Shown here: piece after piece, positions 7,901 to 22,645 of the stretch
Layout: each line of letters begins with the position of its first letter
How positions within the stretch are numbered: the first letter of the stretch is position 1
Source: Methanolobus sp. WCC4
GTDB lineage: Archaea > Halobacteriota > Methanosarcinia > Methanosarcinales > Methanosarcinaceae
Assembly (NCBI RefSeq): GCF_038022665.1
Contig: NZ_CP150629.1
Coordinates: 1,284,480 to 1,348,479 of the forward strand
Direction: 5' to 3'
DNA length: 64,000 nt
Translations under genes and position numbers: made by a program
Notes under the pieces: generated by a model
The model's input: the letters and a program-made list of their open reading frames with translations, nothing else
What the model was told of the DNA's origin: nothing
Databases searched by the model: none

Positions 7901-10072
7901 CATTTCTATAGAACTTTGATCAACTCCTCCGGGATGGACAACATCGGTTGATATTCCAGTTGTGCTGTTAGATGCATATGAACCATTTGCAGGGAACTCA
8001 TTGTTGTCACAGGTGAATGAGAATACAAGTGCAAAAGGCTGTTTTTCGTTAGGTACGTTATATCCATCTACAGTAATGGTATAGTTACCTTCTACTGTCG
8101 CGTCAAGGTCTATCCCTTCAACATTGTTTATATGATCAGGACCATCGTTTCCATAATATATACCCGATTCATCTTCAAGTGTCAGATCAAGGTCGTTGAC
8201 AAGTGATTTACTTGAAAAAGTCGGACCCGGATAATCAGTCCACACGAGAGTGGCCCTTGCTGGATTTCCACTTTCAACATAATCGTATGTATAATTCCAG
8301 GAATCATCTGTGTCCAGGGAGATATCATCATAGTAGGCTATTACTTCTGGATACGTAGCAAGGATGGAGTTCTCAACATCAAGACGCCCCCAACCCTGTG
8401 AATAATCAGGTCTGCCCACAATCTCCTGTGTACTGCCAGTTCCGAACTGGCCAGGTGTCATATCAAAAGCGCCATTCAGAAGAGTTGCTTTAAGTAATGC
8501 AGCACTCGGGTTTGCAACATTTTCAATATCGGTGTAGTATTCTCTGACTATGGCTGCGGAACCAGCAACAATGGGCGTTGCCATACTCGTACCGCTCATG
8601 TAGGTATAGTCTTCGTATCCTGTTAAACTGGATTGTGTAGAGTATATATAGGTGCCAGGTGCAACAATATCCGGTTTGATCCTACCGTCCTCTGTAGGCC
8701 CTCGACTGCTGGTAGCGGCAATCCCGCTTGTATTATCTGCTTTATAGTCGCCTTTGAGTGGAAGTTCCTGGAAGTACAGTCCTCCATAAGTTACTGCTGT
8801 GAATTCCGGTCTATAATTCTCAGAAGAACCAACTGCTATACAGTTCTTTGCTGTTGCTGGTGAGGTAATTGAGTCTTCATCGACAACTCCGTCCTTATCA
8901 AGATCTCTTCCTTCATTGCCAGCTGCAAACAGGATCAACATATCAGGGTGATTCCATGTGAACCAATCTAAGGAATATGTATAGGCATCATACGTACCAT
9001 AGTATTCGTAATATTCATCATCGTATTCCCATCCCCAACTGTTTGTATGTATCCTGGCATCTTCTTCGTACGCTTGCTGGAAAAGTAAGGATATGTCACC
9101 AGGTATCCCTACAAGCGAGCCACTATCATTTCCTGCAGCCTGAAACACTAATGATGCTTCGGGTGCTATTCCAGAATACTGCCCACCTGACATTACACCA
9201 TTTCCAAGTACCGACCCTGTGACATGTGTTCCATGCCCATTCTGGTCCTCTGATCCATCTTCTACAAGATCAATAAGGCTATTGACCCGCCCTCTTATAT
9301 CCAGATGTAATGTATCCTTATTCCCCGTATCCAGTCCAGTATCACAAACAGCAATGATCTGCCCGCTACCATTCAGTCCCAACGTATTGTGCACTGTGTT
9401 GACATTGACAATCTCCGATGCAACATCATTGGAGATGGTTGGTTGTTTGTAGTGTTCTATCCAGCAGACACCGTTGATCGCAGTAATTGGATCAATTGTT
9501 GTGGTTGGGGTCTGTGCTCTGAGCATCCTGCCGGACCTTACACTTATTGTTCCGCCAATGTCAATGATCTCTGAAGCAATATTCTCAGATTCTTTTTCAT
9601 CGAATATCAGTACGATAATGTCCGAGATGTCTTCGGATTCGGATGAGATCTCCAGAGCTGAGGTTGTTACCACGTCATCAGTGTACTTATATTCAGGAAG
9701 GAACTCACCTGTCCAGCGCACGAACTCGAGTGTTTCTACCAGTGTCTTCTCAGTTCCGTTCATCCTGAGCACAAAAGCATTATCAGGGACATAGTCAAAG
9801 GTATCTGCTCCGGCATCTTCAACTGCAGATATCCATTCCTGTGTAACCGGTCCATTGAATTGCACGATGTAATATTTCTTCGAACTATCCTGAATTTCAG
9901 ATGTTGAGGATGTTTGCATCGTATTCTGCTCAGATGCACTTTGTTCGATGATATCATCTGTATCAATGTTACCTGCTTTCAGGAATATCACATTATTATC
10001 ACTTGCAGAAGATGCCATAGGAGAAAGCAATATAGTAATGATCGATATGACTACAATTGTTTTTAGATTCAT
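4940..10072 (-). CDS. Secreted subtilisin-like (S8) protease with eight 87-residue repeats and PGF-pre-PGF domain
   Basis: A 1710-residue exported protease (an upstream start at 10132 would add 20 residues). The ATG at 10072 is preferred because it begins the signal peptide directly (MNLKTIVVISIITILL) and the likely promoter at 10141 would place transcription start downstream of 10132. The catalytic triad is canonical: D244 (CDTGLD), H280 (NGHGTHV) and S496 (SGTSMATP). After the protease domain and an Ig-like segment come eight tandem 87-residue repeats resembling DUF5018-type beta domains, a poly-Gly linker, a PGF-pre-PGF domain (TPGFSPF) and a C-terminal membrane segment ending MRKH. The repeats probably form a stalk holding the enzyme away from the envelope. 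Confidence 0.92.
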   Translation of the reverse strand: MNLKTIVVISIITILLSPMASSASDNNVIFLKAGNIDTDDIIEQSASEQNTMQTSSTSEIQDSSKKYYIVQFNGPVTQEWISAVEDAGADTFDYVPDNAFVLRMNGTEKTLVETLEFVRWTGEFLPEYKYTDDVVTTSALEISSESEDISDIIVLIFDEKESENIASEIIDIGGTISVRSGRMLRAQTPTTTIDPITAINGVCWIEHYKQPTISNDVASEIVNVNTVHNTLGLNGSGQIIAVCDTGLDTGNKDTLHLDIRGRVNSLIDLVEDGSEDQNGHGTHVTGSVLGNGVMSGGQYSGIAPEASLVFQAAGNDSGSLVGIPGDISLLFQQAYEEDARIHTNSWGWEYDDEYYEYYGTYDAYTYSLDWFTWNHPDMLILFAAGNEGRDLDKDGVVDEDSITSPATAKNCIAVGSSENYRPEFTAVTYGGLYFQELPLKGDYKADNTSGIAATSSRGPTEDGRIKPDIVAPGTYIYSTQSSLTGYEDYTYMSGTSMATPIVAGSAAIVREYYTDIENVANPSAALLKATLLNGAFDMTPGQFGTGSTQEIVGRPDYSQGWGRLDVENSILATYPEVIAYYDDISLDTDDSWNYTYDYVESGNPARATLVWTDYPGPTFSSKSLVNDLDLTLEDESGIYYGNDGPDHINNVEGIDLDATVEGNYTITVDGYNVPNEKQPFALVFSFTCDNNEFPANGSYASNSTTGISTDVVHPGGVDQSSIEMTIDGNPVTFTSAVITDGYRIKHDTSVAYQAEEHTVSITATTNSGQQFSYEWEFNVGPEITSFGLTSPVTNGIIDNSAGTIELTVPYGTGVSYLEPTITHNAQSISPASGVAKDFTNPVTYTVTAEDGSSKQYTVTVNEAPNTEKDITSFKFTSPDATGMIDQTARTITITVPHGTDRTALTPTIVHTGQSITPSNGVEKDFTDPVEYEVTAEDGSTKKYTVTVTEAPNTEKEITSFKFTSPDATGTIDQTARTIELTVPHGTDRTALTPTIVHTGQSITPSNGVEKDFTDPVEYEVTAEDGSTKKYTVTVTEAPNTEKEITSFKFTSPDATGTIDQTARTIELTVPHGTDRTALTPTIVHTGQSITPSGGVEKNFTNPVEYEVTAEDGTTKQYTVTVNIAPNTEKEITSFKFTSPDATGTIDQTARTIELTVPYGTDRTALTPTIVHTGQSITPSSGVEKDFTDPVGYEVTAEDGSTKKYTVTVIEAPNTEKEITSFKFTSPDAIGTIDQTARTIELTVPYGTDRTALTPTIVHTGQSISPESGTEKDFTNPVEYEVTAEDGSKKQYTVTVNEAPNTEKEITSFKFTNPVATGQINESEKNIEITVPNGTVVTALIPTIVHTGQSISPENETVEDFTSPVIYTVTAEDGTAQPYTVTVYIASSTAKEITSFKFEEPAVEGTINKTARTIELTVPYGTNVTALVPIIECTGHKLSPDTGIVQNFTEPVVYNVTAGDGSNQEYVVTVNIAEDTSTPATTSPSSGGGGGGGGGGGGTSGEEFENIEVKDVSSVFVGTGNVKFEFYRNGNDIQYVSYESLKNSGTISVTIEVLKDRSAFVNSLPVGDIYKNINIWVGKVGYATEDNIDDPVIGFRVSRSWIEDNDIEEDSIVLYRYDGGWGRLPTTQTGSDDEYLYFESSTPGFSPFVITGEANVRLASVPDEEESDDTPDLNISSSTEAENQEEKSIGALSALISGLIISFVCFLMRKH
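5639..7726 (-). repeat. Eight tandem 261-bp repeats within the subtilase gene
   Basis: Eight consecutive copies of an 87-codon unit, each beginning ITSF and ending near APNTEKE. Copies 2 to 6 (about 6161-7465) are almost identical in DNA and protein, while copies 1, 7 and 8 at the edges have diverged. This is the pattern expected when the centre of an array keeps being homogenised by unequal crossing-over or gene conversion. Confidence 0.9.
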
Positions 10073-10140
10073 GTCCCAACCTTTTTCGTACCACTTTTTG
10101 AATAGAAATACCTGTGCGCTAAATATATTCATTCAAACTG

Positions 10141-10255: not shown

Positions 10256-13200
10256 TCAGAACATCCTTTTTCTGAATCCTGCGGCAATGATTCCAAGTAA
10301 ACCAAGCACCAACACAGAAGCTAGTATGTCAGAACCTGTTACTGAGTAACTGCTGCTTTTAGATTCTTCAGGTATTGAATCCTTTGTCATCTCATAGCCT
10401 TCGACATAATTGCTTTCAGTAGGTGATCTCATGGAAGCTTCCATTTCCATGTTCTCTCCGGCACCAGCATCAGTGTATGTTTGGTTCCCTCCACTGTTTT
10501 CCACAACATTTAGTTCAGTACCGGTACTGCTTGAACTCTGGCTTTTGGTTGGACTTGCTGTGCTCTGTGTGGATGTAGACTTTGAAGACAAGGGAGATGG
10601 ATTTCTGAGGTCATCCATGATTTTCTTGTAAGCATCCATCTTTTCTTGTGAGACATCAATTCTTCCGGAATCAATCGCACTCTGGATAAACTCATCCATT
10701 AGTGGATTGCCACATACATGGTGACAGCACGATGGTCCATTTTCGATAACACTATCTAATAGTTCATTTACAAGATTTTCTAGGATTGCATCAGGTGCAT
10801 CCCAATATTCCATTCTAATGGCTTCTATCATCCTGCCCAGTACTGATTGATACGCATCTGGATACTGATTCCAATAATCTTTCATTTTCGGATTATTCAC
10901 ATATGTCTGGTAGAACTCTTCCCAGAGATTGTCACTAACCACGTCTGTAGTAACATCCCAACCCCATAGGTATTCAAATGCACTGCTGAACATTCCAGCT
11001 CCGGCGTATCCTTCTCTCATCATTCCATCGATCCAGGTAGGATTCAGGTAACGTGAACGTATATTCTCCATGAAGTATTCCTTGAAAGGTACCACTTCAA
11101 AGTTGGTCGGGTCCTTTCCGGAAGATACGAAGAGTTCAGGAGCTTTTCCACTGATATGCTCTATGGCAAGGCTGAGTCCTCCGAAGTACTGGTAGAAATC
11201 ATCGTTATCCAGTGTGTCATAGAGGTTGGAATTATCAGAGTGAATAGCCGCATCGACATCTCTCAGGTTCTCTCTGAGCAGTTCTGAGGCGTCATATCCC
11301 CAGAGGTCCGTGCCGTATGCATATCCCATCTTGTCAATGTAGAGTTCAGCGATCTCGGATTCGTTTTCCCATGTACCACTGGCACTTACTGCATTACCTA
11401 CAGCGATCTCATAGGTTCCATCCATTACTGCAAAGCAGCGCATAGTGGATAATGTTGTGGCAAGTTCATGGGCTTCAGTCTCATTCATGCTCTCAAGTAA
11501 ATTCTCGTATAGTGCCTGATAGATAGCCTGAGTGCTCTCATTGACATAGTTTGGATACTCTCCCTGTTCTGCAGTGTTAGCAAGTCTTACGGCTTCATCA
11601 AGCATCTTGAGCTTGTTCGGGAAAGCGTCACGCATACCTGCAGTAGCATACACGATATCGATACGTGGTCTTCCTGGCATATCCGAATTATAGTTTGGAA
11701 GGAGTTCGTCCTCGGGTATCAGTTCAACACCTGTGACCTTACCGTTCCTGTCCCAGACAGGCTGTACACCAAGCAGGTACAATGCCTCGGCTTCAAGAGT
11801 ACCGTGGTCCCTTATGAACTCGACACCGAACCTTGAGAATGCAACCTTGCTTGGATATTCACCATATTTGATGTAGTACTGGTCTATCATGTCCTGTGCC
11901 AGTGTCTTGCCTATTTCCCAGGTTGCTGCAGATGGATACAGTTCAGGATTGACACCATAGAAGTTCCTTCCAGTAGGCACTGCATTGGGGTTCATTATCG
12001 GATCGGTTCCCGGTCCGGCAGGAATGAAACCTGCACTCAATGCATAGATGATACGGTCCATCTCAATGGATGAATCAAGAAGGTTCTGCCTGCATGACAG
12101 GCCAAACTCAAGATCGAGTGCTACGGATGCATTCGTCTCATTATAGACCGCCATCTGGGCATCTGCTATCGAGGTTCCATTGGTGATGACTTCCCAGACC
12201 AGAAGTTGAACCTTTGTATCGTTCAGAGGTATACCCAGTGGATACTCATCTTCAGGATAGTATGCACCAGTGACATTATCATCGAAGTAACTTCCCATCA
12301 TGGACCGGACCATCATTGACAGTTCATCACTGTCAGGGTCGGTCATGTTGGTTGAAGGTACCTCACCCAGGGTGTGCAGGCCGAATGGTATGTTCTCACT
12401 GGAGATATCCTCTATGTACTCGTGCAACACGTTCTTTACGAACAGGCTGAAGTTCGTCTCATCCATGGCATAGAGGGTTTCTGTATCGACATCAAGGTCG
12501 CTATCAAGATGGGCTTCTGTCATTGATCTTATGATCTGGTCCTGGTATGCTTTCTTTGTCCTTTCATCAAGTTCCGGTCCGTAATACTGCTGTATGTACC
12601 TTGACACATTTCCAAGTTCACCGTAGATGCCACCTTTGCCCAGTGTTGGTGTCAGATGGTCGATGATCAGTGCATTTCCACGATATTCAGCGGTTAGTCC
12701 TTCTCCTACATTAGCTACGATGTAAGGATAGATGTTAGGCAGGTCCTGTAGAAGTACCGGTGCCCATTCTTCTGAACGGTTAAGTCCGTAAGCCTGTCCT
12801 GGTAGCCATTCATGGGTGCCATGTGTACCAAGGTGGATGATGGCATCTGCATCCCATTCATCGTTGAGCCATAGATAGAAGGCTATGTACTGGTGTGGTG
12901 GTGGTACAAGGCTGCTATGATAAAGAGCGTCATCGTTCTGCAGGAATCCCCTTGCAGGCTGTGGCATTATCCATACATCCCCGAACTGCACTGTAGGAAT
13001 GACAATGAATTTTTCCCCGGTATCGTTCTCCCATATCATGAGGCTCTTGTTCTGTGGAAGTTCCTCTGCCCATGGCTCTCCCCATTCTGTGATGACCTGT
13101 TCTTTGAGGTTTTCAGGTATCTCTGTCTCGAACCATTCATGGTATGTCTCCATTGGTATGAGCTGGAGTCCCCATTCGGTCCTGTTCTCTACCATTTCGT

Positions 13201-15082
13201 TCATGACACCAGGGGCCCATGAACCTGCATTGATACCCTGTTCCTGTATCATTTCCAGAAGAAGGCTATCATTCTCAGGAACACCGGTGACATTGAAGTC
13301 GCTGTTGTTCATCTTCTCAAGCAGAAGCCTTGTGCTCTCGATCACATTGAGATAGCTGGCTCCGATATTATCCTTGCCTGACGGATAGTTGTAGTAGATG
13401 ATAGCAACTTTCTTGTCCTTGTTCTCGTTGAGTTTCAGCTCAGCCCAGTTTATGGACCTGTTAGCTATCCAGTCCACCTGTGTGTCCATTGCCTGGTATA
13501 CCGTAGCATCTGTTTCTGGATCAGTGACACTCTTTCCAATCACAATGAATTCGAAGATACCATCGACATTAGGACCAATTGTCTTACGGACAACCTGTGA
13601 ATTTGGAATGCCACGGTTTGCATCGGCCGGGTCAACGGTGCCAGTCTCTTCTACGACTATTCCTCTAAGTACTGGTACATCCAGAGCTTCGAGCTCTTCC
13701 AGGCCTTTTTCATTATCCCAGTAGTTGAGTCTGAAGCTTTTAAGTGAGATGACACATTGGACAAGTGGCTGTCCTTCTTCATCAGAATAATACTTCATGA
13801 TGTCATCGAACGTATCGAATCCGGCAATCACATTGCAGTCCTTGGATTCAAGGTCCTTTATCAATGCATCTATTACCTGGGTCTGACCGGACTGGATATC
13901 CTCTCTATGGAACCACATACCGATAGTAGGGCGGGAAGGGTTGTAGACACGATGTTCTCCATAGTTATATTGTTGATACCAGTTGAGATATTGCTCCGTA
14001 GATTCGAAATAACCGTCCTCATAGTCCGGATGGTAAAGTCCCACATCCGGTAATGTCTGAGTGATATCTACATAGTTCCAGTTATCAGTTGCCTCTGACC
14101 TGTTAGTGTATTCCTTTGCAATACATATAAGGAAATTCTCTGCATTCCTTGGGTCTGTGGCGAACTCTGATTCTATGTTCTTATATGAATTAATCAGGGT
14201 TATATTCTCAGAACCACTGAATTTATGGTCAAAATATTCCGGAACCACTGACTCTTTGGAATATATGTCGATCAGTGTTGTGTTATTATTGTGGGCTTCA
14301 AGGAGCCATTGGTCTGTATCGTTGTAAATATCCCCGTTCATCATTTCACAGAAGATGGCATCCTGTTGTCTAAGAGTACCGTTCTCTCCTGCATCTATGA
14401 TCTCATCACAGTATGCGGAATAAGTGCTGTAATTGTATGCCGGGATAAAAGCGAATTCCATGTTCTGGCTGTATGGGTTTGTCCAGCTTGCCCTTTCAAG
14501 GGTGGTGGAATATATTCCCCAGCCTGTATATGTTATTTTGATAACAGGCCACTGGTCTGTGATCTCAGGACGGTCGCTGTATTGTCTTGAAAGATACATC
14601 AGCAGGTTCTCACCATATCTTTTGCTGATATCCGTATCAACTCCCATATTACTGTAGTAATAACAGATCGGATCATCCTGTTTTCCATTGGATGAATAAT
14701 CAAAGAATTCAGGAACTCCTGCAGATGTAAGGTCTATTAAAGATACGTTATTGTTATGTGCACTGTAAAGATATTCTGATATGGGATCATAGACCCCTGA
14801 ATATAGCATATAACAGAATATGATATCCTGTGTTTCAAGGAAACCGTTCTCTGCTGCTTCCATCAATTCGTCACTTGGACCTGATGGACCGTAGCCCTGT
14901 ATGAATGTGAATGATATATCATCTGCAATAGAACCGTTAGTACTGGCCTCTTCCAGAGACGCATGTGATGCAAATGAAATGTACGTGATATTTATCTTCT
15001 GTTCATCCGCTGCTGCAACACCAGTTAGTGATACCAACAACAATATACTTAATACTAATACTGATCTTATTTTCAATTGCAT
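10256..15082 (-). CDS. Secreted, membrane-anchored CobN/HmuS-like chelatase family protein (paralogue 1)
   Basis: A 1608-residue member of the CobN/ChlH/HmuS superfamily, whose members insert or remove metals in tetrapyrroles. Unlike true CobN it has a signal peptide (MQLKIRSVLVLSILLLVSL, starting at 15082) and a C-terminal membrane segment ending FRKRMF, so it works outside the membrane. Two related units of about 180 residues precede the CobN domain (from about 395). The conserved HLGTHGTHEWLPG motif is at about residue 750, and a Cys/His cluster CCHHVCGNP, shared with the neighbouring paralogue, at about 1450. A Ser/Thr-rich stretch leads into the anchor. A start at 15151 would lack a signal peptide at the N-terminus and would cross the conserved leader. 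The substrate (haem, cobalamin or another metal tetrapyrrole) is inferred only. Confidence 0.85.
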   Translation of the reverse strand: MQLKIRSVLVLSILLLVSLTGVAAADEQKINITYISFASHASLEEASTNGSIADDISFTFIQGYGPSGPSDELMEAAENGFLETQDIIFCYMLYSGVYDPISEYLYSAHNNNVSLIDLTSAGVPEFFDYSSNGKQDDPICYYYSNMGVDTDISKRYGENLLMYLSRQYSDRPEITDQWPVIKITYTGWGIYSTTLERASWTNPYSQNMEFAFIPAYNYSTYSAYCDEIIDAGENGTLRQQDAIFCEMMNGDIYNDTDQWLLEAHNNNTTLIDIYSKESVVPEYFDHKFSGSENITLINSYKNIESEFATDPRNAENFLICIAKEYTNRSEATDNWNYVDITQTLPDVGLYHPDYEDGYFESTEQYLNWYQQYNYGEHRVYNPSRPTIGMWFHREDIQSGQTQVIDALIKDLESKDCNVIAGFDTFDDIMKYYSDEEGQPLVQCVISLKSFRLNYWDNEKGLEELEALDVPVLRGIVVEETGTVDPADANRGIPNSQVVRKTIGPNVDGIFEFIVIGKSVTDPETDATVYQAMDTQVDWIANRSINWAELKLNENKDKKVAIIYYNYPSGKDNIGASYLNVIESTRLLLEKMNNSDFNVTGVPENDSLLLEMIQEQGINAGSWAPGVMNEMVENRTEWGLQLIPMETYHEWFETEIPENLKEQVITEWGEPWAEELPQNKSLMIWENDTGEKFIVIPTVQFGDVWIMPQPARGFLQNDDALYHSSLVPPPHQYIAFYLWLNDEWDADAIIHLGTHGTHEWLPGQAYGLNRSEEWAPVLLQDLPNIYPYIVANVGEGLTAEYRGNALIIDHLTPTLGKGGIYGELGNVSRYIQQYYGPELDERTKKAYQDQIIRSMTEAHLDSDLDVDTETLYAMDETNFSLFVKNVLHEYIEDISSENIPFGLHTLGEVPSTNMTDPDSDELSMMVRSMMGSYFDDNVTGAYYPEDEYPLGIPLNDTKVQLLVWEVITNGTSIADAQMAVYNETNASVALDLEFGLSCRQNLLDSSIEMDRIIYALSAGFIPAGPGTDPIMNPNAVPTGRNFYGVNPELYPSAATWEIGKTLAQDMIDQYYIKYGEYPSKVAFSRFGVEFIRDHGTLEAEALYLLGVQPVWDRNGKVTGVELIPEDELLPNYNSDMPGRPRIDIVYATAGMRDAFPNKLKMLDEAVRLANTAEQGEYPNYVNESTQAIYQALYENLLESMNETEAHELATTLSTMRCFAVMDGTYEIAVGNAVSASGTWENESEIAELYIDKMGYAYGTDLWGYDASELLRENLRDVDAAIHSDNSNLYDTLDNDDFYQYFGGLSLAIEHISGKAPELFVSSGKDPTNFEVVPFKEYFMENIRSRYLNPTWIDGMMREGYAGAGMFSSAFEYLWGWDVTTDVVSDNLWEEFYQTYVNNPKMKDYWNQYPDAYQSVLGRMIEAIRMEYWDAPDAILENLVNELLDSVIENGPSCCHHVCGNPLMDEFIQSAIDSGRIDVSQEKMDAYKKIMDDLRNPSPLSSKSTSTQSTASPTKSQSSSSTGTELNVVENSGGNQTYTDAGAGENMEMEASMRSPTESNYVEGYEMTKDSIPEESKSSSYSVTGSDILASVLVLGLLGIIAAGFRKRMF

Positions 15083-15166
15083 GTTATCCCCCGATAACGT
15101 GTTGTGACACTCCTCTGCTTGCTTGGCGGCGTTAGGGGAGTGTCCGAACAATCTCTTGTCCTATCC
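15083..15166 (-). promoter_or_regulatory. Structured leader of cobN-like gene 1 (candidate cis-regulatory RNA)
   Basis: Reading 5' to 3' on the minus strand: GGATAGGA (15159-15166); an 8-bp stem GACACTCC/GGAGTGTC (arms 15137-15144 and 15106-15113) closing a 23-base loop with GCCGCCAAGCAAGCAG; then the palindrome GTTATC-GGGG-GATAAC (15083-15098) directly before the ATG, with the purine-rich ribosome binding site in its loop. The same layout precedes the paralogue at 20447-20538 with a different but still paired stem. Confidence 0.6.
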
Positions 15167-15189
15167 TCTTCTTCTTATCTCATAATTTG

Positions 15190-15213
15190 AAAAGGCGCAA
15201 AAAGAAAAGCGCC
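15190..15213 (-). terminator. Hairpin with T-run between the two cobN-like genes
   Basis: On the minus strand GGCGC (15209-15213) pairs with GCGCC (15194-15198) around a T-rich 10-base loop and is followed by TTTTC. It lies just after the stop of paralogue 2 and before the leader of paralogue 1. It may end transcription or act as an attenuator that lowers downstream expression. Confidence 0.5.
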
Positions 15214-15226
15214 CAAATTTGTCTTT

Positions 15227-18200
15227 TCAGAATTGTCTTCTCTTCCAGAATCCTACGTATATTGCCCCCAGTAAAGCCAGTACAAATACGGATGCGAGGA
15301 TATCAGAACCTGATATAGAAGGACTGTTGCTTTCCGTAGTGGCAGAAACAGTTTCCTTTGTCATCTCATATCCTTCAACATAACTATCTTCAACAGATGA
15401 ACGCATTGATGCTTCTTCTTCCAGCATATCTCCGGCTCCTGTGTTGCTATAGGTGGTCTGGTTGCCTCCATTGTTCTCGACAACGTTCAGTTCGGTTCCG
15501 GTTTTACTGGAACTGCTACTGACGCTTGTAGTTTTCACATCCTGTGTGGAGGTATCATCATCAGTGGATCCGGTACCTCTTACTTCAGCCATGATCACAT
15601 TATAATCGTCCATTTTATCCTTTGAGACATCTATCCTTTCAGAGTCAATAAGACTCTGAATGAACTCATCAAGAAGAGGATTACCACATGTGTGATGGCA
15701 GCAGGTAACACCGTGTTCTATCACAGTATCCAGGTATTCGTTCACAAGGATCTCAAGAACTTCATCTGATGGGGTCCAGTGACCTGTACGGACGACATCG
15801 ATTAGTCTTCCGGTTATTGATCCATATGCATGAGGATTGACCTCTTTCATCCATTCGGATACTTCGCTATCCGCTACAAATTTGTCATAGACCTTGTCCC
15901 ACATGTCATCTGTAACAAGATCAGGTGTTAAAACCTCTATTCCCCAGAGATTCTCAACGAATTCCATCATCATCCTGGAGCCTTCATACCCATGTTCCAT
16001 CCAGCCTTCGATGTTCACATCACTGAATACTGTGTACAGTTCATTTTCAAGATATGTCTTGAGGTCCTCCATCGTAAGGTCATCCGGATTCTCAAGGTTC
16101 GCAATGAGGATCTCGGGCATCTCTCCAGTTAGCTCTTTTATGGCATTGGCCAATCCCGATACGTATTGGTAGAAGTCATCGGTATTTGTAGCACCATATG
16201 TACTGGAACTTCTGCTGTGGACGATCACATCTGTTCCATTCAATGCATTCTCAAAGATGACAGTATTCTCTATCTCGATATCCTCTCCTGTCTGGAGCCT
16301 GATGTATTCCCCGATGGTCTGTCCCCAGATATTCTCTCCGTAGATGTAACACATCCTGTTTATGTAAAGTTCCGCAAGTTCGGTGCTATTCTCGTTGGTT
16401 GAAGCTGCATTTGCCATTCCGGTTCCATAGGCACCAGGTGCTGGCCCGAATATGCTGAACTGTGCAACATCAAGCGACAGAGTCTCATTTTCTATTGATC
16501 CATCGTAAATGGATTTAAGGTCATCAGTATTCTGTTTGACATAGTTAGGACAATCTGCGGTCTCTTCCTGTTCGTAGGCAAGTCTTACAGCTTGATCGAG
16601 AAGTTTGATCTTTCCGGGGAAAGTATCCCTGTAAAGACCTGATATCTGTATGAGCACATCAACACGTGGTCTTCCAAGCTCGGAGGAATTCAATGCAACC
16701 AGTCCTGCAACTTCTCCATCATCCCATACTGGCTTTATGCCCATCAGGTAGAGTATCTGTGATTCCATGACACCTTCGTGGCGTGTTGTTTCACCAGCCC
16801 AGAGAATGTATCCCACCTTTGTTGGATATTCTCCGTTCTCAGCATAGTATTCTGCAAGCCACACATCAATGAGTTCAACGGCATTGTCCCATGCTGCTTT
16901 TGAGGGTATCAGGTCTTCATCAAAGGAGTAGAAGTTCCTTCCTGAAGGTAATGTTTCCGGCTTCTGTACAGGGTCACCGCCAAGGTTACCTTCGATGTAT
17001 TCACCGTCCATTGCATTGAGGACCTGTTGTACTTCATTGTCAGCCTCTCCAAGTAATTCTGCGTAGCTTATGGACGTGTTAAGTTCTTCGCCAATTTCTG
17101 CAGTTGAAGTTCCAAGTATCTGTATCTGGGCTTCTGTGGTGGACATGTTCTCAAGCAATACAAGAGTTAACAGGTCGTTTGACGCATTATCGGATGCATT
17201 GTACGTTTCAATAAGTTCTGAGAAGTCATCTCCCATCATGGAGTTGACCATTCCTACAAGCTCTTCTCCTTCTGGAGCTTCTCCAAGTACGTGCAGCCCG
17301 TATGGCATGGAAAGACTCTTAAGATCTGTAAGTACGTCATCCACTTCCTCAAGGAAACTATCAATTGTCTCGTTACTCTCTGCCAGGCTCATGTTCACCT
17401 TGTCATCAAGTCCAAGTTCAATCGTAAGGTTGACGATCTCATAGAAATGTACCTGCTTGTACTCATCTTCTGCAACTGATGTCCTGTATGAGGTGATCTC
17501 GCTGCTAAGTGTCGCATAATCACCATATAGGCCAGCAGATACGACCGGAGGTATCAGGTGGTCGATCATTACTGCGTTACCTCTGCGTTTTGCCTGTAGT
17601 CCTTCTCCCAATCCATCCATTACGTAAGGATAGATCACAGGTATGTCCCCTGTCATAATTGCAGGCCACTCCTCTGCCAGAAGGCCGAATTCCTTTCCAG
17701 GAAGCCATTCTACAGTTCCGTGTCTTCCCATGTTCACCATGACATCAGCATCGAATTCATGCTGTAACCAGAGGTAGAATGCAATGTACTGGTGGTGTGG
17801 TGGAAGTTCTGTGTCGTGATAAAGCACCTCCTTATCCTGCAACCATCCTCTTGTTGGCTGTGGTGCAAGGATCACATTGTCACTGATGCTTATCTTCGGG
17901 ATGACGATGAACCTGTCTTCATTCTCATCCGTATAGACCATGATCTCGCCAGGTGCCTCGCCCCACATCTCTGTGACCTCGTCCCTTCTCTCCTCAGGGA
18001 GCTCGTAGAACCATGAAAGGTAGATACTTTCAGGAATGAGTTCCACCTCTCCCGTTTCCACCATTGTCTCAAGTTCTCCGGGAGCCCACGTTCCTATATT
18101 TCTCCCCTGATGGACGATAAGGTCTACAAGTTCTGTTTTGTTTGGAATGAGGTTGCTGTTGATGTCATATCCTTCAGTTTCCATCCCTTCAAGAAGGTTC

Positions 18201-20446
18201 ACGATACTGGGCATGGCCTCAAGATATGATGCACCGATGTTGTCCTTTCCACCACCATGGTTGTAGTAGATGATGACAACCTTCTTGTCAGATTCATTTT
18301 CCAGACCAAGATTCGCCTGTGCAATTGCACGATCTGTAAGCCAGTCAACCTGTTCATCCACGGCAATATATGCTTCTGTAGTAGTATTGGCAACCTGAAT
18401 GGTTTCTAAGGCTCCGATCATGATAAGATCAATGACAGCTTCACCTTCAGGTCGGTAGAGTCTGTTCATGTTGGCAGCTGGTAGCGGGACATTTGAGCTC
18501 TCCCATTCCGAAATATTCATGGCCGTATTCAGAACAGCACTCATTACAGGTACATCAAGTTCTTCCATGTCAAAATAATTACCAAGGAAGTTGAAAGAAA
18601 CTACAACATCTACCTTTGTCTCTTCACTGTAGTTCAAGAAACTATCAATATCAGTATTTTTATCCCCATAGCAGGCAATTACATTGGTTCCTTTATCTTC
18701 AAAGCTATCTATGAGTTTATCAATTGAATCAATATCGTCCAGATAGTATGAACGATAGAATGTAATGGCTACAGTTGGAGCATTTTCATCAAATGCATGT
18801 CCATCTGTCCTGTTAGCATACCACTCAAAGTACTCTCCAGCATCAAGCATCATGTACTCAGGAACTCTATCTGTTATTGCAGGGTGGTATATAGCAGCAG
18901 GTACATATACAGCACTTTCAACTGTAAGGTCATCACGTCCGTAGTATTCTTTTGCCAGATAGAAGATGAGATTGTCAAGGTTTGTATCATCTATGGCAGT
19001 TCCCGACCAGTACTCATAAAGATCAGCTTTGAAATCTTCTTTATCATCACAATCTGATGGAATTGTATAATTACTTTCAGGCAGTTCCGTATTATCCCCA
19101 ATAACCAATGCTCCATTATCGATAGCATTCTGAACCTGTTCTTCAAATTTTGATGCAGATTCTGAGGCGACCATTATGGAATATATAATATCTGTGTTGT
19201 TGAGGTCAAGATCTTCCGGTATATTATCTGTAATATAATAACTGACTGTAATGTTATAATCCGGGTTTGAGTTAATTCTCTGTGTAAAATTAGCGAGTTC
19301 TTCCTTGTAGGATGAATATCCTGTTATGATAGAAACGTTCAGATGTGGAGCATTACTTACCTCTACAGTTCCTTTTTGTTTCAATAAGACCAGATCACTT
19401 ACTTTGTAGTAATATGTGCTCATTGCATAGAGATAAGTTGTTCCTGAAATTGATGATTGGTCAAGGTATGCCAGTACTTCGTTCTGGTCGATATCAGAGC
19501 TGCTGGACACCTGGAGTTCAATATCATTGATATCTGCACTGTCCACAGTTATCTCGATCATTCCATTGTACCATCTCCATTCATCATACTTTTTCGAGTA
19601 TGACTGATTGACAGAGTACAGTAGATACTCTCCATTCGGAATATCTTCAAAAGTAAAATTACCATTAATATCGGATGTAGTGTTAGCTACAAGTTCATCT
19701 GTTTGTTTATCTACTAGTACCAGATCACTTATTTTGTAGTAATATGTGCTCATTGCATAGAGATAAGTTGTTCCTGAAATTGATGATTGGTCAAGGTATG
19801 CCAGTACTTCGTTCTGGTCGATATCAGAGCTGCTGGACACCTGGATTTCAATATCATTGATATCTGCACTGTCCACATTTATCTCGATCATTCCATTGTA
19901 CCATCTCCATTCATCATACTTTTTCGAGTATGACTGATTGACAGAGTACAGTAGATACTCTCCATTCGGAATTTCTTCAAAAGTAAAATTACCATTAATA
20001 TCGGATGTAGTGTTAGCTACAAGTTCATCTGTTTGTTTGTCTACCAGTACCAGATCACTTACTTTGTAGTAATATGTGCTCATTGCATAGAGGTAAGTTG
20101 TTCCTGAAATTGATGATTGGTCAAGGTATGCCAGTACTTTGTTCTGGTCAATATCAGAGCTGCTGAACACTTGGAGTTCAATATCATTGATATCTGCACT
20201 GTCCACATTTATCTCGATCATTCCATTGTACCATCTCCACTCATCATACTTTTTTGAGTATGATTGGTTGACAGAGTACAGTAGGTATTCTCCATTCGGA
20301 ATATCCTCAAATACAAAATTCCCGTCTGCATCACTGGTCGTATTTGCTACCAGATAATAATCATTTTCTTCTGCCGTTGCTACTGTTGTTAGTGACAGTA
20401 ACAACAATACACTTATGAACAATGTCATTATTCTCTTATTTTGCAT
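15227..20446 (-). CDS. Secreted, membrane-anchored CobN/HmuS-like chelatase family protein (paralogue 2)
   Basis: A 1739-residue paralogue of the next gene. The order is signal peptide (about 1-25), three nearly identical 110-residue units of the carboxypeptidase-regulatory/Cna-B beta-sandwich kind (about 29-355, with GNFTFEDIPNGEYLLYS), one N-terminal unit like those of paralogue 1, the CobN domain, CCHHTCGNP at about 1579, a Ser/Thr-rich linker and a C-terminal membrane anchor (FWKRRQF). The motif that reads HLGTHGTHEWLPG in paralogue 1 is NMGRHGTVEWLPG here (about 903), so the first His and a later His are lost. The two proteins therefore probably differ in metal chemistry or form a catalytic/accessory pair. 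Confidence 0.85.
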   Translation of the reverse strand: MQNKRIMTLFISVLLLLSLTTVATAEENDYYLVANTTSDADGNFVFEDIPNGEYLLYSVNQSYSKKYDEWRWYNGMIEINVDSADINDIELQVFSSSDIDQNKVLAYLDQSSISGTTYLYAMSTYYYKVSDLVLVDKQTDELVANTTSDINGNFTFEEIPNGEYLLYSVNQSYSKKYDEWRWYNGMIEINVDSADINDIEIQVSSSSDIDQNEVLAYLDQSSISGTTYLYAMSTYYYKISDLVLVDKQTDELVANTTSDINGNFTFEDIPNGEYLLYSVNQSYSKKYDEWRWYNGMIEITVDSADINDIELQVSSSSDIDQNEVLAYLDQSSISGTTYLYAMSTYYYKVSDLVLLKQKGTVEVSNAPHLNVSIITGYSSYKEELANFTQRINSNPDYNITVSYYITDNIPEDLDLNNTDIIYSIMVASESASKFEEQVQNAIDNGALVIGDNTELPESNYTIPSDCDDKEDFKADLYEYWSGTAIDDTNLDNLIFYLAKEYYGRDDLTVESAVYVPAAIYHPAITDRVPEYMMLDAGEYFEWYANRTDGHAFDENAPTVAITFYRSYYLDDIDSIDKLIDSFEDKGTNVIACYGDKNTDIDSFLNYSEETKVDVVVSFNFLGNYFDMEELDVPVMSAVLNTAMNISEWESSNVPLPAANMNRLYRPEGEAVIDLIMIGALETIQVANTTTEAYIAVDEQVDWLTDRAIAQANLGLENESDKKVVIIYYNHGGGKDNIGASYLEAMPSIVNLLEGMETEGYDINSNLIPNKTELVDLIVHQGRNIGTWAPGELETMVETGEVELIPESIYLSWFYELPEERRDEVTEMWGEAPGEIMVYTDENEDRFIVIPKISISDNVILAPQPTRGWLQDKEVLYHDTELPPHHQYIAFYLWLQHEFDADVMVNMGRHGTVEWLPGKEFGLLAEEWPAIMTGDIPVIYPYVMDGLGEGLQAKRRGNAVMIDHLIPPVVSAGLYGDYATLSSEITSYRTSVAEDEYKQVHFYEIVNLTIELGLDDKVNMSLAESNETIDSFLEEVDDVLTDLKSLSMPYGLHVLGEAPEGEELVGMVNSMMGDDFSELIETYNASDNASNDLLTLVLLENMSTTEAQIQILGTSTAEIGEELNTSISYAELLGEADNEVQQVLNAMDGEYIEGNLGGDPVQKPETLPSGRNFYSFDEDLIPSKAAWDNAVELIDVWLAEYYAENGEYPTKVGYILWAGETTRHEGVMESQILYLMGIKPVWDDGEVAGLVALNSSELGRPRVDVLIQISGLYRDTFPGKIKLLDQAVRLAYEQEETADCPNYVKQNTDDLKSIYDGSIENETLSLDVAQFSIFGPAPGAYGTGMANAASTNENSTELAELYINRMCYIYGENIWGQTIGEYIRLQTGEDIEIENTVIFENALNGTDVIVHSRSSSTYGATNTDDFYQYVSGLANAIKELTGEMPEILIANLENPDDLTMEDLKTYLENELYTVFSDVNIEGWMEHGYEGSRMMMEFVENLWGIEVLTPDLVTDDMWDKVYDKFVADSEVSEWMKEVNPHAYGSITGRLIDVVRTGHWTPSDEVLEILVNEYLDTVIEHGVTCCHHTCGNPLLDEFIQSLIDSERIDVSKDKMDDYNVIMAEVRGTGSTDDDTSTQDVKTTSVSSSSSKTGTELNVVENNGGNQTTYSNTGAGDMLEEEASMRSSVEDSYVEGYEMTKETVSATTESNSPSISGSDILASVFVLALLGAIYVGFWKRRQF
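19385..20362 (-). repeat. Three tandem 330-bp repeats in cobN-like gene 2
   Basis: The same 110-codon unit occurs three times with a period of exactly 330 bp (for example CAGATCACTT at 19391, 19721 and 20051). The copies differ at only a few positions, which points to recent amplification or gene conversion. Each encodes one surface beta-sandwich domain. Confidence 0.9.
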
Positions 20447-20538
20447 GTTATCCCTCGATAACGTGCAGCATTTCGGTTACTTTGCTTGCAGGCTGTACCG
20501 AAATGCTCCACCATCTTATTTTATCAGATTTCCTATCC
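20447..20538 (-). promoter_or_regulatory. Structured leader of cobN-like gene 2 (candidate cis-regulatory RNA)
   Basis: Minus strand, 5' to 3': GGATAGGA (20531-20538); a perfect 11-bp stem AGCATTTCGGT/ACCGAAATGCT (20497-20507 with 20467-20477) closing a 19-base loop with GCCTGCAAGCAAAG; then GTTATC-GAGG-GATAAC (20447-20462) touching the ATG, with the ribosome binding site inside the hairpin. The stem differs in sequence from the one at 15106-15144, yet the pairing and the loop core are kept. Confidence 0.6.
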
Positions 20539-20603
20539 ACCAACCACAATGTTAAGTCAAGTTGTTTTAACACAAGCAAACTTGAATCGAAAACGCAAAA
20601 AAA

Positions 20604-20975
20604 TTAACCGGAAGTTGTATTACCTCCATCTTCTTCTTCAGGAACGTAAACCACCCTTCCGTCAGCAAGTTTGTAAGCAGTACCAAGTGCCTCTCCAGAC
20701 CCACCACCGATCTGGTCTGTCATGTTCAGGACCTCAATGGGTTTACCCTGTTCCTTGATGATTATCTGCATATCCTTCTGCCCCGGGTTCTTGACCAGGG
20801 TTATATCCTCTGTAGGACTGAGAAGTTCCGGCATCTGGTACGACATCACCAGAGCTACAAGGAGTGCCACGGAGAAGACCATTGCAATGTCAAAAAGGTT
20901 GGCAACCCCGGTCAGGGGGTTCTGCTCGTCCTCATTATTGATGAGTCCTGTTCGTCTGAACCTTCTCCTTTTCAC
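20604..20975 (-). CDS. DUF2149 membrane protein (HmuV-like partner of ExbB channel)
   Basis: A 123-residue protein matching DUF2149. It has a basic N-terminus (KRRRFRRTG), one membrane segment (ANLFDIAMVFSVALLVALVM) and a mainly extracytoplasmic C-terminal part. The layout resembles ExbD/TolR, which pairs with ExbB-type channels. I choose the GTG at 20975, which overlaps the TGA of the ExbB gene (GTGA) and has GGAGGT upstream; the longer ATG reading would overlap that gene by 64 bases. The stop is followed at once by a T-run (TTTTTTT). Confidence 0.85.
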   Translation of the reverse strand: MKRRRFRRTGLINNEDEQNPLTGVANLFDIAMVFSVALLVALVMSYQMPELLSPTEDITLVKNPGQKDMQIIIKEQGKPIEVLNMTDQIGGGSGEALGTAYKLADGRVVYVPEEEDGGNTTSG

Positions 20976-21595
20976 TCCCCTACCTCCAGGGTGTCGAGGA
21001 TATAGTCTATATCGGCCATATCCTGCCAGTACCATCTTTTCCTTATCTGTGTAAGCACGTAACCGATACTTCCTGCGAACAGTCCGATGACCGTTGTAGC
21101 AAAGGCTATCATCAGGTTATTTGCAAGTTGCTCGATATTACCCTGTGAAAGGCCGATAAGTGCAGGTCCGAGTGGGATAAGAGTTCCCATAAGTCCGAGC
21201 ATAGGTGAGATGGTAGCTACGATCCTGGTCTGCTCAAGTCTCTTGGCCATCCTTATCTCGTATTCCTGTGACAGCCATTCAATGGCAGGGATCATATTCT
21301 TCTCAAGATGGTCTGCAGCTGCTGTTGCAAAATTTGTTACCATGAAGTTCTGCTTTATGTTACGCAGTGAGCCTGCAGCCCTTCCGTATTCCTGTGAACC
21401 TGTATATTCTCTGACCTCGCTGCAACAGAGTTCAAGGTTCCTGACATCACGATGTCTTTTTGCATATTCAGAAAGGAACTCTCCGATAAGCATCAGAGAG
21501 AATACCACTATCAATATCAGACATATCACTACCGGATACAGTAGTGATGAAGAGAATGTATACAATATACCAAACAACGAAGATGTTGCATCCAT
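20972..21595 (-). CDS. MotA/TolQ/ExbB-type proton channel
   Basis: A 207-residue protein with three membrane segments (about 12-36, 118-141 and 160-185) and the family signature around ISPMLGLMGTLIPLG and AFATTVIGLFAGSIGYV. Such proteins carry protons and transmit the energy to a partner that reaches out of the membrane. The start lies 2 bp after the DUF2162 stop, and the end overlaps DUF2149 by 4 bp. The pair is therefore a likely energy module for the two exported CobN-like proteins. Confidence 0.9.
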   Translation of the reverse strand: MDATSSLFGILYTFSSSLLYPVVICLILIVVFSLMLIGEFLSEYAKRHRDVRNLELCCSEVREYTGSQEYGRAAGSLRNIKQNFMVTNFATAAADHLEKNMIPAIEWLSQEYEIRMAKRLEQTRIVATISPMLGLMGTLIPLGPALIGLSQGNIEQLANNLMIAFATTVIGLFAGSIGYVLTQIRKRWYWQDMADIDYILDTLEVGE

Positions 21596-21597
21596 TT

Positions 21598-22272
21598 TTA
21601 TTGACCTCTTATGTTATTGAGGGCGTATCCCCCGATTATAAATGCAGTGAATATCAACAGTGGGATCAGCTCGAGCTCTCCTCCGCTGTTCAGTGCAAGG
21701 TTGAGCTTCTTTGCTTTGATGTATGCAGGGACTATCATTGCTCCGAGAAGGTAGAATATCCCCAGGAACATCATCGCTGTTCCAAGGTCCTCAGGTGTTC
21801 TTTTCATTTTTCTGAAGACCCATGTGGATGATATCACTGATATGAAGAAAACAAGTCCTACCAGAATACCTACCTTCCAGCCACTTACTTCAAGTGTTGA
21901 GGCCAGTATCATACAGGACACAAAAAGAGCTGTAAGACATACGGGACAGGGGACCGATATCACAAGGAAGGTCCTTTTTGAGACATCATGTCCACAGTTC
22001 CATTTCTTTTGGGTGTATATCCCTGCTCCAATCAGAACAAGTGCTATGAATACGTGCAGTGTCATTCCAAGGTTCGCTATGCCTTCCAGATATGACTGGT
22101 CCACCATTTCCACCAGACTTCCAAGTATTATGGATATGAGGAAATAACCGCTTGCAAGTATCAGAACATCTTTTTTCCTGACTGTAGAGAATCCACATCC
22201 TACTCCGGTCTTTAACCCAAATATGAAGATACCTGTCAGTATGCCTATGACGGCTGCATAAACGTAACTCAT
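21598..22272 (-). CDS. DUF2162 integral membrane protein (putative transporter)
   Basis: A 224-residue protein with about six membrane segments and a CPVC motif (VPCPVCLTALFVSC) inside one of them, matching DUF2162, which has a remote likeness to cytochrome c biogenesis/CcdA-type membrane proteins. It is the first gene of the operon and has the upstream control region. A transport or redox role for a metal or tetrapyrrole is plausible from context, but nothing in the sequence proves it. Confidence 0.8.
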   Translation of the reverse strand: MSYVYAAVIGILTGIFIFGLKTGVGCGFSTVRKKDVLILASGYFLISIILGSLVEMVDQSYLEGIANLGMTLHVFIALVLIGAGIYTQKKWNCGHDVSKRTFLVISVPCPVCLTALFVSCMILASTLEVSGWKVGILVGLVFFISVISSTWVFRKMKRTPEDLGTAMMFLGIFYLLGAMIVPAYIKAKKLNLALNSGGELELIPLLIFTAFIIGGYALNNIRGQ

Positions 22273-22645
22273 TTGACCACCCTTTTACTGATTCGATTTG
22301 TTGTTTAATTGCTAATTTGTGTATTGAATTATAATTAGTTTATTTGCTTTTAATTAATGCTAATTATCAAATACAATCATTAATGTTTGTAAATTAGCTA
22401 ATATATGCAAACAAAGTCTCCACTAATAAACCTTTCGGATTATTTTGGCCCAAAATAAGTATCAGTAGATGCAAATATTTTCAATGTGCCGGAGTAATCT
22501 GTATAATAAAAATATTATATTTTATGAGAAATTACTACCTTTTCGTTGAAGGATACTTCTTCAGCTATGAAGTTACATGTGAACTGAATAAGGATGTCAC
22601 TACTCAGTAACAACGAACATAAAATCAGTAAAAATAGAAAAGAAG
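22273..22645. other. AT-rich intergenic control region upstream of the DUF2162 operon
   Basis: No gene seen. The left half is very AT-rich and carries three copies of a GCTAAT-type word (GCTAATT at 22311 and 22359, and ATTAGCTAAT at 22393-22402), with further ATTAG/CTAAT elements between them. This looks like a repeated operator over the promoter of the operon read to the left. The right half holds nothing I recognise up to the terminator of the ribosomal operon. Confidence 0.4.

Follow-up and report, generated by a model that had tools for sequence, protein, structure and literature searches.

An archaeal operon joining two exported CobN-like proteins to an ExbB/DUF2149 channel: a sister of the hmuSTUV haem system with a candidate role in cobalt or nickel acquisition

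A 64,000-nucleotide stretch of the Methanolobus sp. WCC4 genome (contig NZ_CP150629.1, positions 1,284,480 to 1,348,479; hereafter the window) carries on its minus strand an operon of five genes in the order DUF2162 > ExbB > DUF2149 > CobN-B > CobN-A. A first-pass annotation, made from the letters of the window, had described here a membrane module followed by two giant CobN-like genes, and all of these were found at the following coordinates by Pfam match. We describe the operon, its conservation, the export signals, clade and residue pattern of its CobN proteins, and its genomic context, and we propose a candidate function in the acquisition of cobalt or nickel.

21598-22272, minus strand: DUF2162 membrane protein, putative Co/Ni (divalent metal) permease (PF09930, E 1e-68)
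20972-21595, minus strand: MotA/TolQ/ExbB proton channel (PF01618, E 7e-12)
20604-~20975, minus strand: DUF2149, putative ExbD-like partner with one transmembrane helix (TM) and an extracytoplasmic domain (PF09919, E 5e-35)
15227-20446, minus strand: CobN-B, 1739 aa (PF02514, E 6e-298; class I chelatase body at 478-1563)
10256-15082, minus strand: CobN-A, 1608 aa from the ATG at 15082 (PF02514, E 2e-295; class I chelatase body)

Within the membrane trio, DUF2162 and ExbB are separated by 2 bp, followed by a 4-bp overlap at the GTG start of DUF2149, which likely overlaps the exbB stop. The 2-4 bp junctions reported earlier thus stand for the trio but not for the cobN genes, which are preceded by gaps of 157 bp (DUF2149 to cobN-B) and 144 bp (cobN-B to cobN-A). 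The TTG listed as the start of cobN-A was rejected as wrong, because the ATG at 15082 follows the same ribosome-binding-site (RBS) hairpin that precedes the ATG of cobN-B. CobN-A and CobN-B are the only PF02514 genes in the whole 2.85 Mb single-contig genome.

Both CobN proteins have a hydrophobic N-terminal signal and a C-terminal membrane anchor, in agreement with the first-pass annotation; these export calls come from the hydropathy of the N and C termini. The N-terminus of CobN-B additionally holds three CarboxypepD_reg-like beta-sandwich repeats. An N-terminal hydrophobic segment together with a C-terminal TM was found in 75 of 88 full-length CobNs linked to DUF2149, and neither segment in 37 of 40 CobNs without DUF2149 in the locus. 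The three exceptions were the window's own two genes, which were represented by short loci, and one Cupriavidus protein. The CobN sample was chosen by DUF2149 or best PF02514 score, and the link to export is an association in this chosen sample.

Two trees were calculated, one with 63 rows and one with 39 rows under a mixture model after removal of long rows. Both united the exported CobNs (archaeal, window, bacterial, and HmuS) in one clade with full support (Shimodaira-Hasegawa-like approximate likelihood ratio test, SH-aLRT, 100), separate from cytoplasmic CobN and BchH. Topology and phylogeny thereby set both window proteins outside cytoplasmic CobN, as the earlier distinction from CobNST had it. 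HmuS (SH-aLRT 100) was sister to the other exported forms (99 and 95); the window proteins lay outside the HmuS clade, and CobN-A and CobN-B fell in different archaeal sub-clades. Since HmuS and the archaeal exported CobNs share a fully supported clade, the description of the operon as a relative of hmuSTUV holds, and its channel genes have counterparts in HmuU and HmuV. It has to be narrowed, however: HmuS is only a sister, HmuS residues are missing, and DUF2162 is not detectably HmuT. On sequence grounds, the system is best described as an archaeal and bacterial sister of hmuSTUV and not as a member of HmuS. A cytoplasmic archaeal CobN clade in Methanosarcina and in anaerobic methanotrophic archaea of group 1 (ANME-1) showed GCCCYFGTHGG at the second active-site motif (loci L038, L040, L043, L046, L048, L054-L056, and L059).

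In HmuS, His538 and His1209 are active-site residues, Met79/His254 form a haem site, and a Met-rich insertion is present (PMC12583661). The His538 equivalent (HFG[TA]HG in HmuS) is kept in both window proteins, as GTHG in CobN-A and GRHG in CobN-B, and so is the equivalent of Glu577. The residues His1209/Glu1212 (LSLDHxxEFMGG) are replaced by Asp/Gln, in NDDFYQYFGG of CobN-A and TDDFYQYVSG of CobN-B, with DDFYQY as in CobN. At haem site 1, His254 is replaced by Ser in CobN-A and Asn in CobN-B; the Met79 position, in a weakly aligned region, is Met in CobN-A and Val in CobN-B, where a Met stands one column earlier. The Met-rich insertion (HmuS domain IV) is absent from CobN-A and CobN-B, in which 276 and 252 residues separate the chelatase motif from PTGRN and Met makes up ≤4%; spacing and Met content resemble those of cytoplasmic CobN.

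A C-terminal motif reads CCHHVCGNP in CobN-A and CCHHTCGNP in CobN-B. This CCxHxCxN pattern is common to the window proteins, other archaeal exported CobNs, and the CobN of Trichlorobacter lovleyi, and it is absent from cytoplasmic CobN and BchH. Among the 26 archaeal exported tree rows, the first and last Cys of CCxHxC were present in all and the second in 25, and in none of the cytoplasmic rows; the active-site His was present in 23/26. IFSIFS replaces HFGTHG in exported, operon-linked paralogs of Methanoculleus (L115:10345-15060) and Methanocalculus (L126:10235-14965) and in L194:13404-17963; judged by this replacement, they are apparent pseudo-enzymes.

A profile search of 296 genomes of the phylum, at the curated cut-off for both families, found DUF2149 in 89 and DUF2162 in 80. 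Neighbourhoods were taken from 40 DUF2149 genes, in stretches of at most 20 kb, and from 80 named loci, all 80 archaeal; the two sets overlap partly, Methanosarcinaceae are over-represented, and the bacterial evidence comes from plasmid records only. The order DUF2162 > ExbB > DUF2149 > CobN, or with CobN just upstream, recurred in Methanosarcinaceae, Methanotrichaceae, Methanoculleus, Methanocalculus, and ANME-1. The closest match to the window's DUF2149 was that of M. profundi (97% identical). Among loci with enough flank on both sides, 50 of the 60 complete trios (23/27 and 27/33 in the two sets) had a co-directional CobN gene no more than 8 kb away, as against 0 of 12 ExbB-DUF2149 pairs without DUF2162 (0/4 and 0/8). 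Gene order is kept far beyond chance, and this difference identifies DUF2162 as a CobN-specific component. The co-occurrence of the membrane genes with secreted CobN-like genes, proposed earlier as a check, is evident from these counts together with the exported-type termini of the linked CobNs; the suggested tie to cytochrome-bearing methanogens fails, as the set also occurs in Methanoculleus, Methanocalculus, and ANME-1. ExbB-DUF2149 pairs without CobN (L104, L119, L122, L125, L128, and L132) adjoin genes for S-layer, CARDB, PKD, and beta-helix surface proteins, and some of them also lack DUF2162, which suggests that the same motor drives further surface machines.

The operon's ExbB gene is the only one of its family (PF01618) in the whole genome, and no TonB_C was found in the genome, which makes an outer-membrane receptor an unlikely client of the channel. 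This group of archaea is not known to have an outer membrane with TonB receptors, and ExbB-DUF2149 therefore cannot do the HmuR-type job usually given to HmuU/HmuV. ExbB has the conserved pathway-type threonines of GT (T138) and ATT (T167/T168), and in DUF2149 N26-L-F-D29 is invariant, with D29 at the start of the TM. ExbB/DUF2149 are genuine counterparts of HmuU/HmuV. HmuV is reported to be similar to ExbD (PMC10100974). In Trichlorobacter, a separate ExbB-ExbD-TonB set lies beside the ExbB-DUF2149-CobN set. We infer that CobN itself is the target of ExbB-DUF2149, which would stand in for the AAA+ motor of cytoplasmic CobN/ChlH. Elsewhere in the genome, a ChlI-like (373 aa) and a ChlD/vWA-like protein (552 aa) are encoded next to cofD (L241:892-3684; G000:C1 ~217.4-220.2 kb); this pair appears to be an orphan chelatase motor in a genome without cytoplasmic CobN.

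In DUF2162, the residues C26, H73, D96, and C109-P-x-C112 are invariant. Its hidden Markov model matched a NicO/DsbD_2-family protein encoded in the CbiMQO-CbiD operon of the same genome (E 1e-5, short of the curated cut-off), and comparison with a NicO-type permease by hhalign gave a probability of 53% (E 1.4e-4). The predicted model (predicted local distance difference test 76, predicted template modelling score, pTM, 0.63) has about 8 helices. A distant NicO-type metal permease is a plausible assignment. Correspondence to HmuT, which has no Pfam family, was rejected (hhalign probability 3%), as was kinship with the UreH-like protein that fills the same slot in Runella, similarity being not detectable.

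Clues to the substrate came from relatives. On a plasmid of T. lovleyi, two cobalamin riboswitches (107 and 65 bits) precede a TonB receptor, DUF2162, ExbB, DUF2149, and an exported CobN, and the B12 gene cluster around this set encodes a sirohydrochlorin cobaltochelatase of its own; the genome paper of 2012 reported no CobS/CobT and left the role of CobN unknown (PMC3403914). A comamonad ExbB-DUF2149-CobN operon is likewise preceded by a cobalamin riboswitch (40 bits), and the true hmu operons of Bacteroides and Prevotella gave no riboswitch match. ANME-1-type copies are accompanied on the same strand by CbiM/CbiQ/CbiO and a DUF71 protein. The B12-type motif, in the form E[HNS]GE[FY]H, was present in 6/6 DUF71 neighbours examined, the exact ENGE form only in L192; the B12-type DUF71 motif is ENGEF/YH, as opposed to EGGE/DxE in Dph6 (PMC3541065).

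Nickel-related genes accompany other relatives. On the Runella slithyformis plasmid pRUNSL01 (L216), a TonB receptor, a UreH/NicO-like protein in the DUF2162 slot, ExbB, DUF2149, and an exported CobN are inserted in a hypABF/hypCDE nickel-hydrogenase maturation cluster, and an Azospirillum copy adjoins an ABC transporter, a TonB receptor, and NikR. In M. marburgensis, CobN1, which may or may not be of the exported type, was high only under nickel limitation, as was NikR1 (PMC12350162). The Methanolobus genome has its own CbiX genes (early B12 pathway), which makes a biosynthetic CobN unnecessary. Taken as a whole, the family appears to serve the acquisition of metals or tetrapyrroles, with different lineages specialised in Co, Ni, or Fe; for archaea, Co/Ni is favoured over haem as the target. 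Haem is not the best-supported substrate: the relatives outside hmu are accompanied by B12 riboswitches, genes for B12, transporters of Co/Ni, or Ni-enzyme genes.

Three elements that may control expression were located.

20447-20462, minus strand: RBS hairpin GTTATC-GAGG-GATAAC, immediately 5' of the cobN-B ATG, with the Shine-Dalgarno-like GAGG in the loop
15083-15098, minus strand: RBS hairpin GTTATC-GGGG-GATAAC, immediately 5' of the cobN-A ATG
22384-22413, minus strand: operator-like palindrome TGTTTG-N18-CAAACA, 141 nt upstream of the ATG of DUF2162

In the 2.85 Mb genome, GTTATC-GRGG-GATAAC occurs at the two cobN sites only, even with one mismatch allowed, and controls gave no hits. A variant with A-T for G-C as the outer pair (ATTATC...GATAAT) precedes cobN in Methanococcoides and other Methanosarcinaceae. 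The folding energy of the hairpin context stood out from shuffles for cobN-B (z -2.9) and was not beyond them for cobN-A (z -0.2). The hairpin points to a shared, putative translational control of the two diverged cobN paralogs. The palindrome lies just downstream of a conserved block resembling a B recognition element and TATA box, overlaps the predicted transcription start, and recurs at -141/-143 with 0-1 mismatch in 6 Methanolobus loci. No second perfect copy exists in the genome, and sites with one mismatch were no commoner than in controls, so that copies elsewhere point to no metal regulon. A search against Rfam found no riboswitch in the window operon, the sole match being a sub-threshold enterobacterial small RNA, taken as chance. 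Upstream of the operon lie ribosomal, transcription, and eIF2-gamma genes. Directly downstream, a large S8 subtilase is encoded (4940-10132, minus strand) with about 8 tandem repeats of ~75-80 aa and a C-terminal anchor.

From these data we infer a motor role, a metal, a substrate, a chemistry with its direction, and a permease role. The operon would encode an extracytoplasmic class I (de)chelatase for Co/Ni tetrapyrroles, driven by the proton-motive force, with DUF2162 as metal permease; we give this reading an even chance. CobN-A and CobN-B, both exported, would stay anchored to the outside of the cell membrane through their C-terminal helix. ExbB and DUF2149 would form a dedicated proton channel that drives the conformational cycle of CobN head and body, taking the place of the ATP-driven AAA+ motor (CobST/ChlID), to which a protein outside the cell is inaccessible. 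Co2+ or Ni2+ would be removed from, or less likely inserted into, environmental corrinoids or F430-type tetrapyrroles. Once released, the metal would travel past the membrane-proximal CCxHxC site and be taken up via DUF2162. More tentatively, and with the odds somewhat against it, ExbB/DUF2149 may be a dedicated, proton-driven motor for exported class I chelatases and thereby give this enzyme superfamily a second energy source next to AAA+ ATPases; methanogens, ANME, and diverse bacteria might employ it, together with a DUF2162 permease, to mine Co/Ni from extracellular corrinoids and F430; the Bacteroidota motor might then act on HmuS rather than, or besides, the TonB receptor, and expression might be set by the cobN-specific RBS hairpin.

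Several points weigh against the proposed Co/Ni (de)chelatase. The Co/Ni context comes from relatives, not from the window operon, whose neighbours are housekeeping genes with no metal-specific gene among them, and CbiMQO adjoins only a minority of archaeal copies. The similarity of DUF2162 to NicO appears borderline, and searches with its model by Foldseek and VIA-align returned generic helical transporters only, with no significant PDB match. The AlphaFold2 model of DUF2149 was poor (pTM 0.27) and was not used. The predicted cytoplasmic ChlI/ChlD-like pair, ~1.08 Mb from the operon and below the family cut-off, is a potential chelatase motor of the other kind. Paralogs without the active-site His suggest that some copies bind rather than chelate. 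Finally, the abundance of M. barkeri BtuS, which may or may not be of the exported type, varies with the iron/sulphur source (PMC10846266).

The last observation would suit an archaeal HmuS acting as an extracellular haem dechelatase that releases iron, as would membership in the same exported clade as HmuS, the retained His538 and Glu577 equivalents, and the ExbB and DUF2149 common to hmu operons. We nevertheless regard haem dechelation as unlikely, given that the second axial ligand pair is Asp/Gln, His254 is Ser/Asn, the Met-rich insertion is missing, neither a HmuT match nor TonB was found, and relatives outside hmu show a B12 or Ni/Co context. The His-less paralogs, still exported and operon-linked in Methanoculleus and Methanocalculus, fit with CobN-A/B as receptors that hand intact corrinoids or other tetrapyrroles to an ExbB/DUF2149-powered transporter without metal chemistry. 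Such import would also suit the surface repeats of CobN-B and the B12 riboswitch control in Trichlorobacter; yet the active-site His persists in CobN-A, in CobN-B, and in 23 of the 26 tree rows of exported archaeal CobNs, and DUF2162 seems of insufficient size to transport a corrinoid and resembles a metal permease more closely, which leaves this reading as improbable as the preceding one. An ordinary late cobaltochelatase (CobNST) of B12 synthesis is suggested by NCBIfam, where CobN-B scores above the cut-off of NF004645 ('cobaltochelatase subunit CobN'), and cytoplasmic ChlI/ChlD proteins are encoded in the genome. However, this assignment is already contradicted by topology (signal peptides, C-terminal anchors) and by a clade apart from cytoplasmic CobN, and early-pathway CbiX is present; we consider it highly improbable.

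The Co/Ni (de)chelatase reading would carry physiological weight. Methanogens need cobalt for corrinoids and nickel for F430 and hydrogenases, and these metals often limit methane formation, so that an unrecognised acquisition route would matter physiologically and environmentally. A large group of archaeal CobN/HmuS homologs is now seen to be exported and to be encoded next to a proton channel and a candidate permease in an operon of fixed layout. Its occurrence in archaea without TonB receptors challenges the view that HmuU/HmuV exist only to power HmuR. The 2025 HmuS paper called the archaeal use of many CobN/HmuS homologs unclear and noted that complete hmu operons are lacking (PMC12583661).

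Among known systems, hmuYRSTUV of Bacteroidota with HmuS (PDB 9d26; PMC12583661) likewise combines an exported, anchored CobN-like protein with ExbB (HmuU) and DUF2149 (HmuV) in an operon. The archaeal operon differs by having no HmuY, HmuT, or TonB receptor HmuR, by DUF2162 in place of HmuT, by the extra CCxHxC motif, and by two CobN paralogs. Release of iron from haem by methanogen 'BtuS' (MSBRM_0518 and MSBRM_1640) was already proposed for M. barkeri (PMC10846266); these, too, are CobN-like proteins assigned to metalloporphyrin salvage, but the membrane module went unrecognised ('lack of the entire operon') and haem was assumed as the iron source. CobNST and the ChlHID magnesium chelatase share the class I large-subunit fold and the GxHG motif, and are cytoplasmic, ATP-driven by AAA+ partners, and of a different clade. 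The ExbB-ExbD, MotAB, and TolQR motors similarly pair an ExbB-family channel with a single-TM partner bearing an invariant Asp at the TM start; here, in a genome that lacks TonB, the channel is genetically linked to a chelatase instead of an outer-membrane receptor. The cobN cluster of Trichlorobacter (Geobacter) lovleyi pSZ77/pGLOV01 (PMC3403914) has the identical DUF2162 > ExbB > DUF2149 > exported CobN order and the CCxHxC motif, and its CobN is 31% identical to CobN-B over ~1277 aa, although that cluster belongs to a Gram-negative host, lies inside a B12 cluster, and includes TonB-dependent receptors and tandem cobalamin riboswitches.

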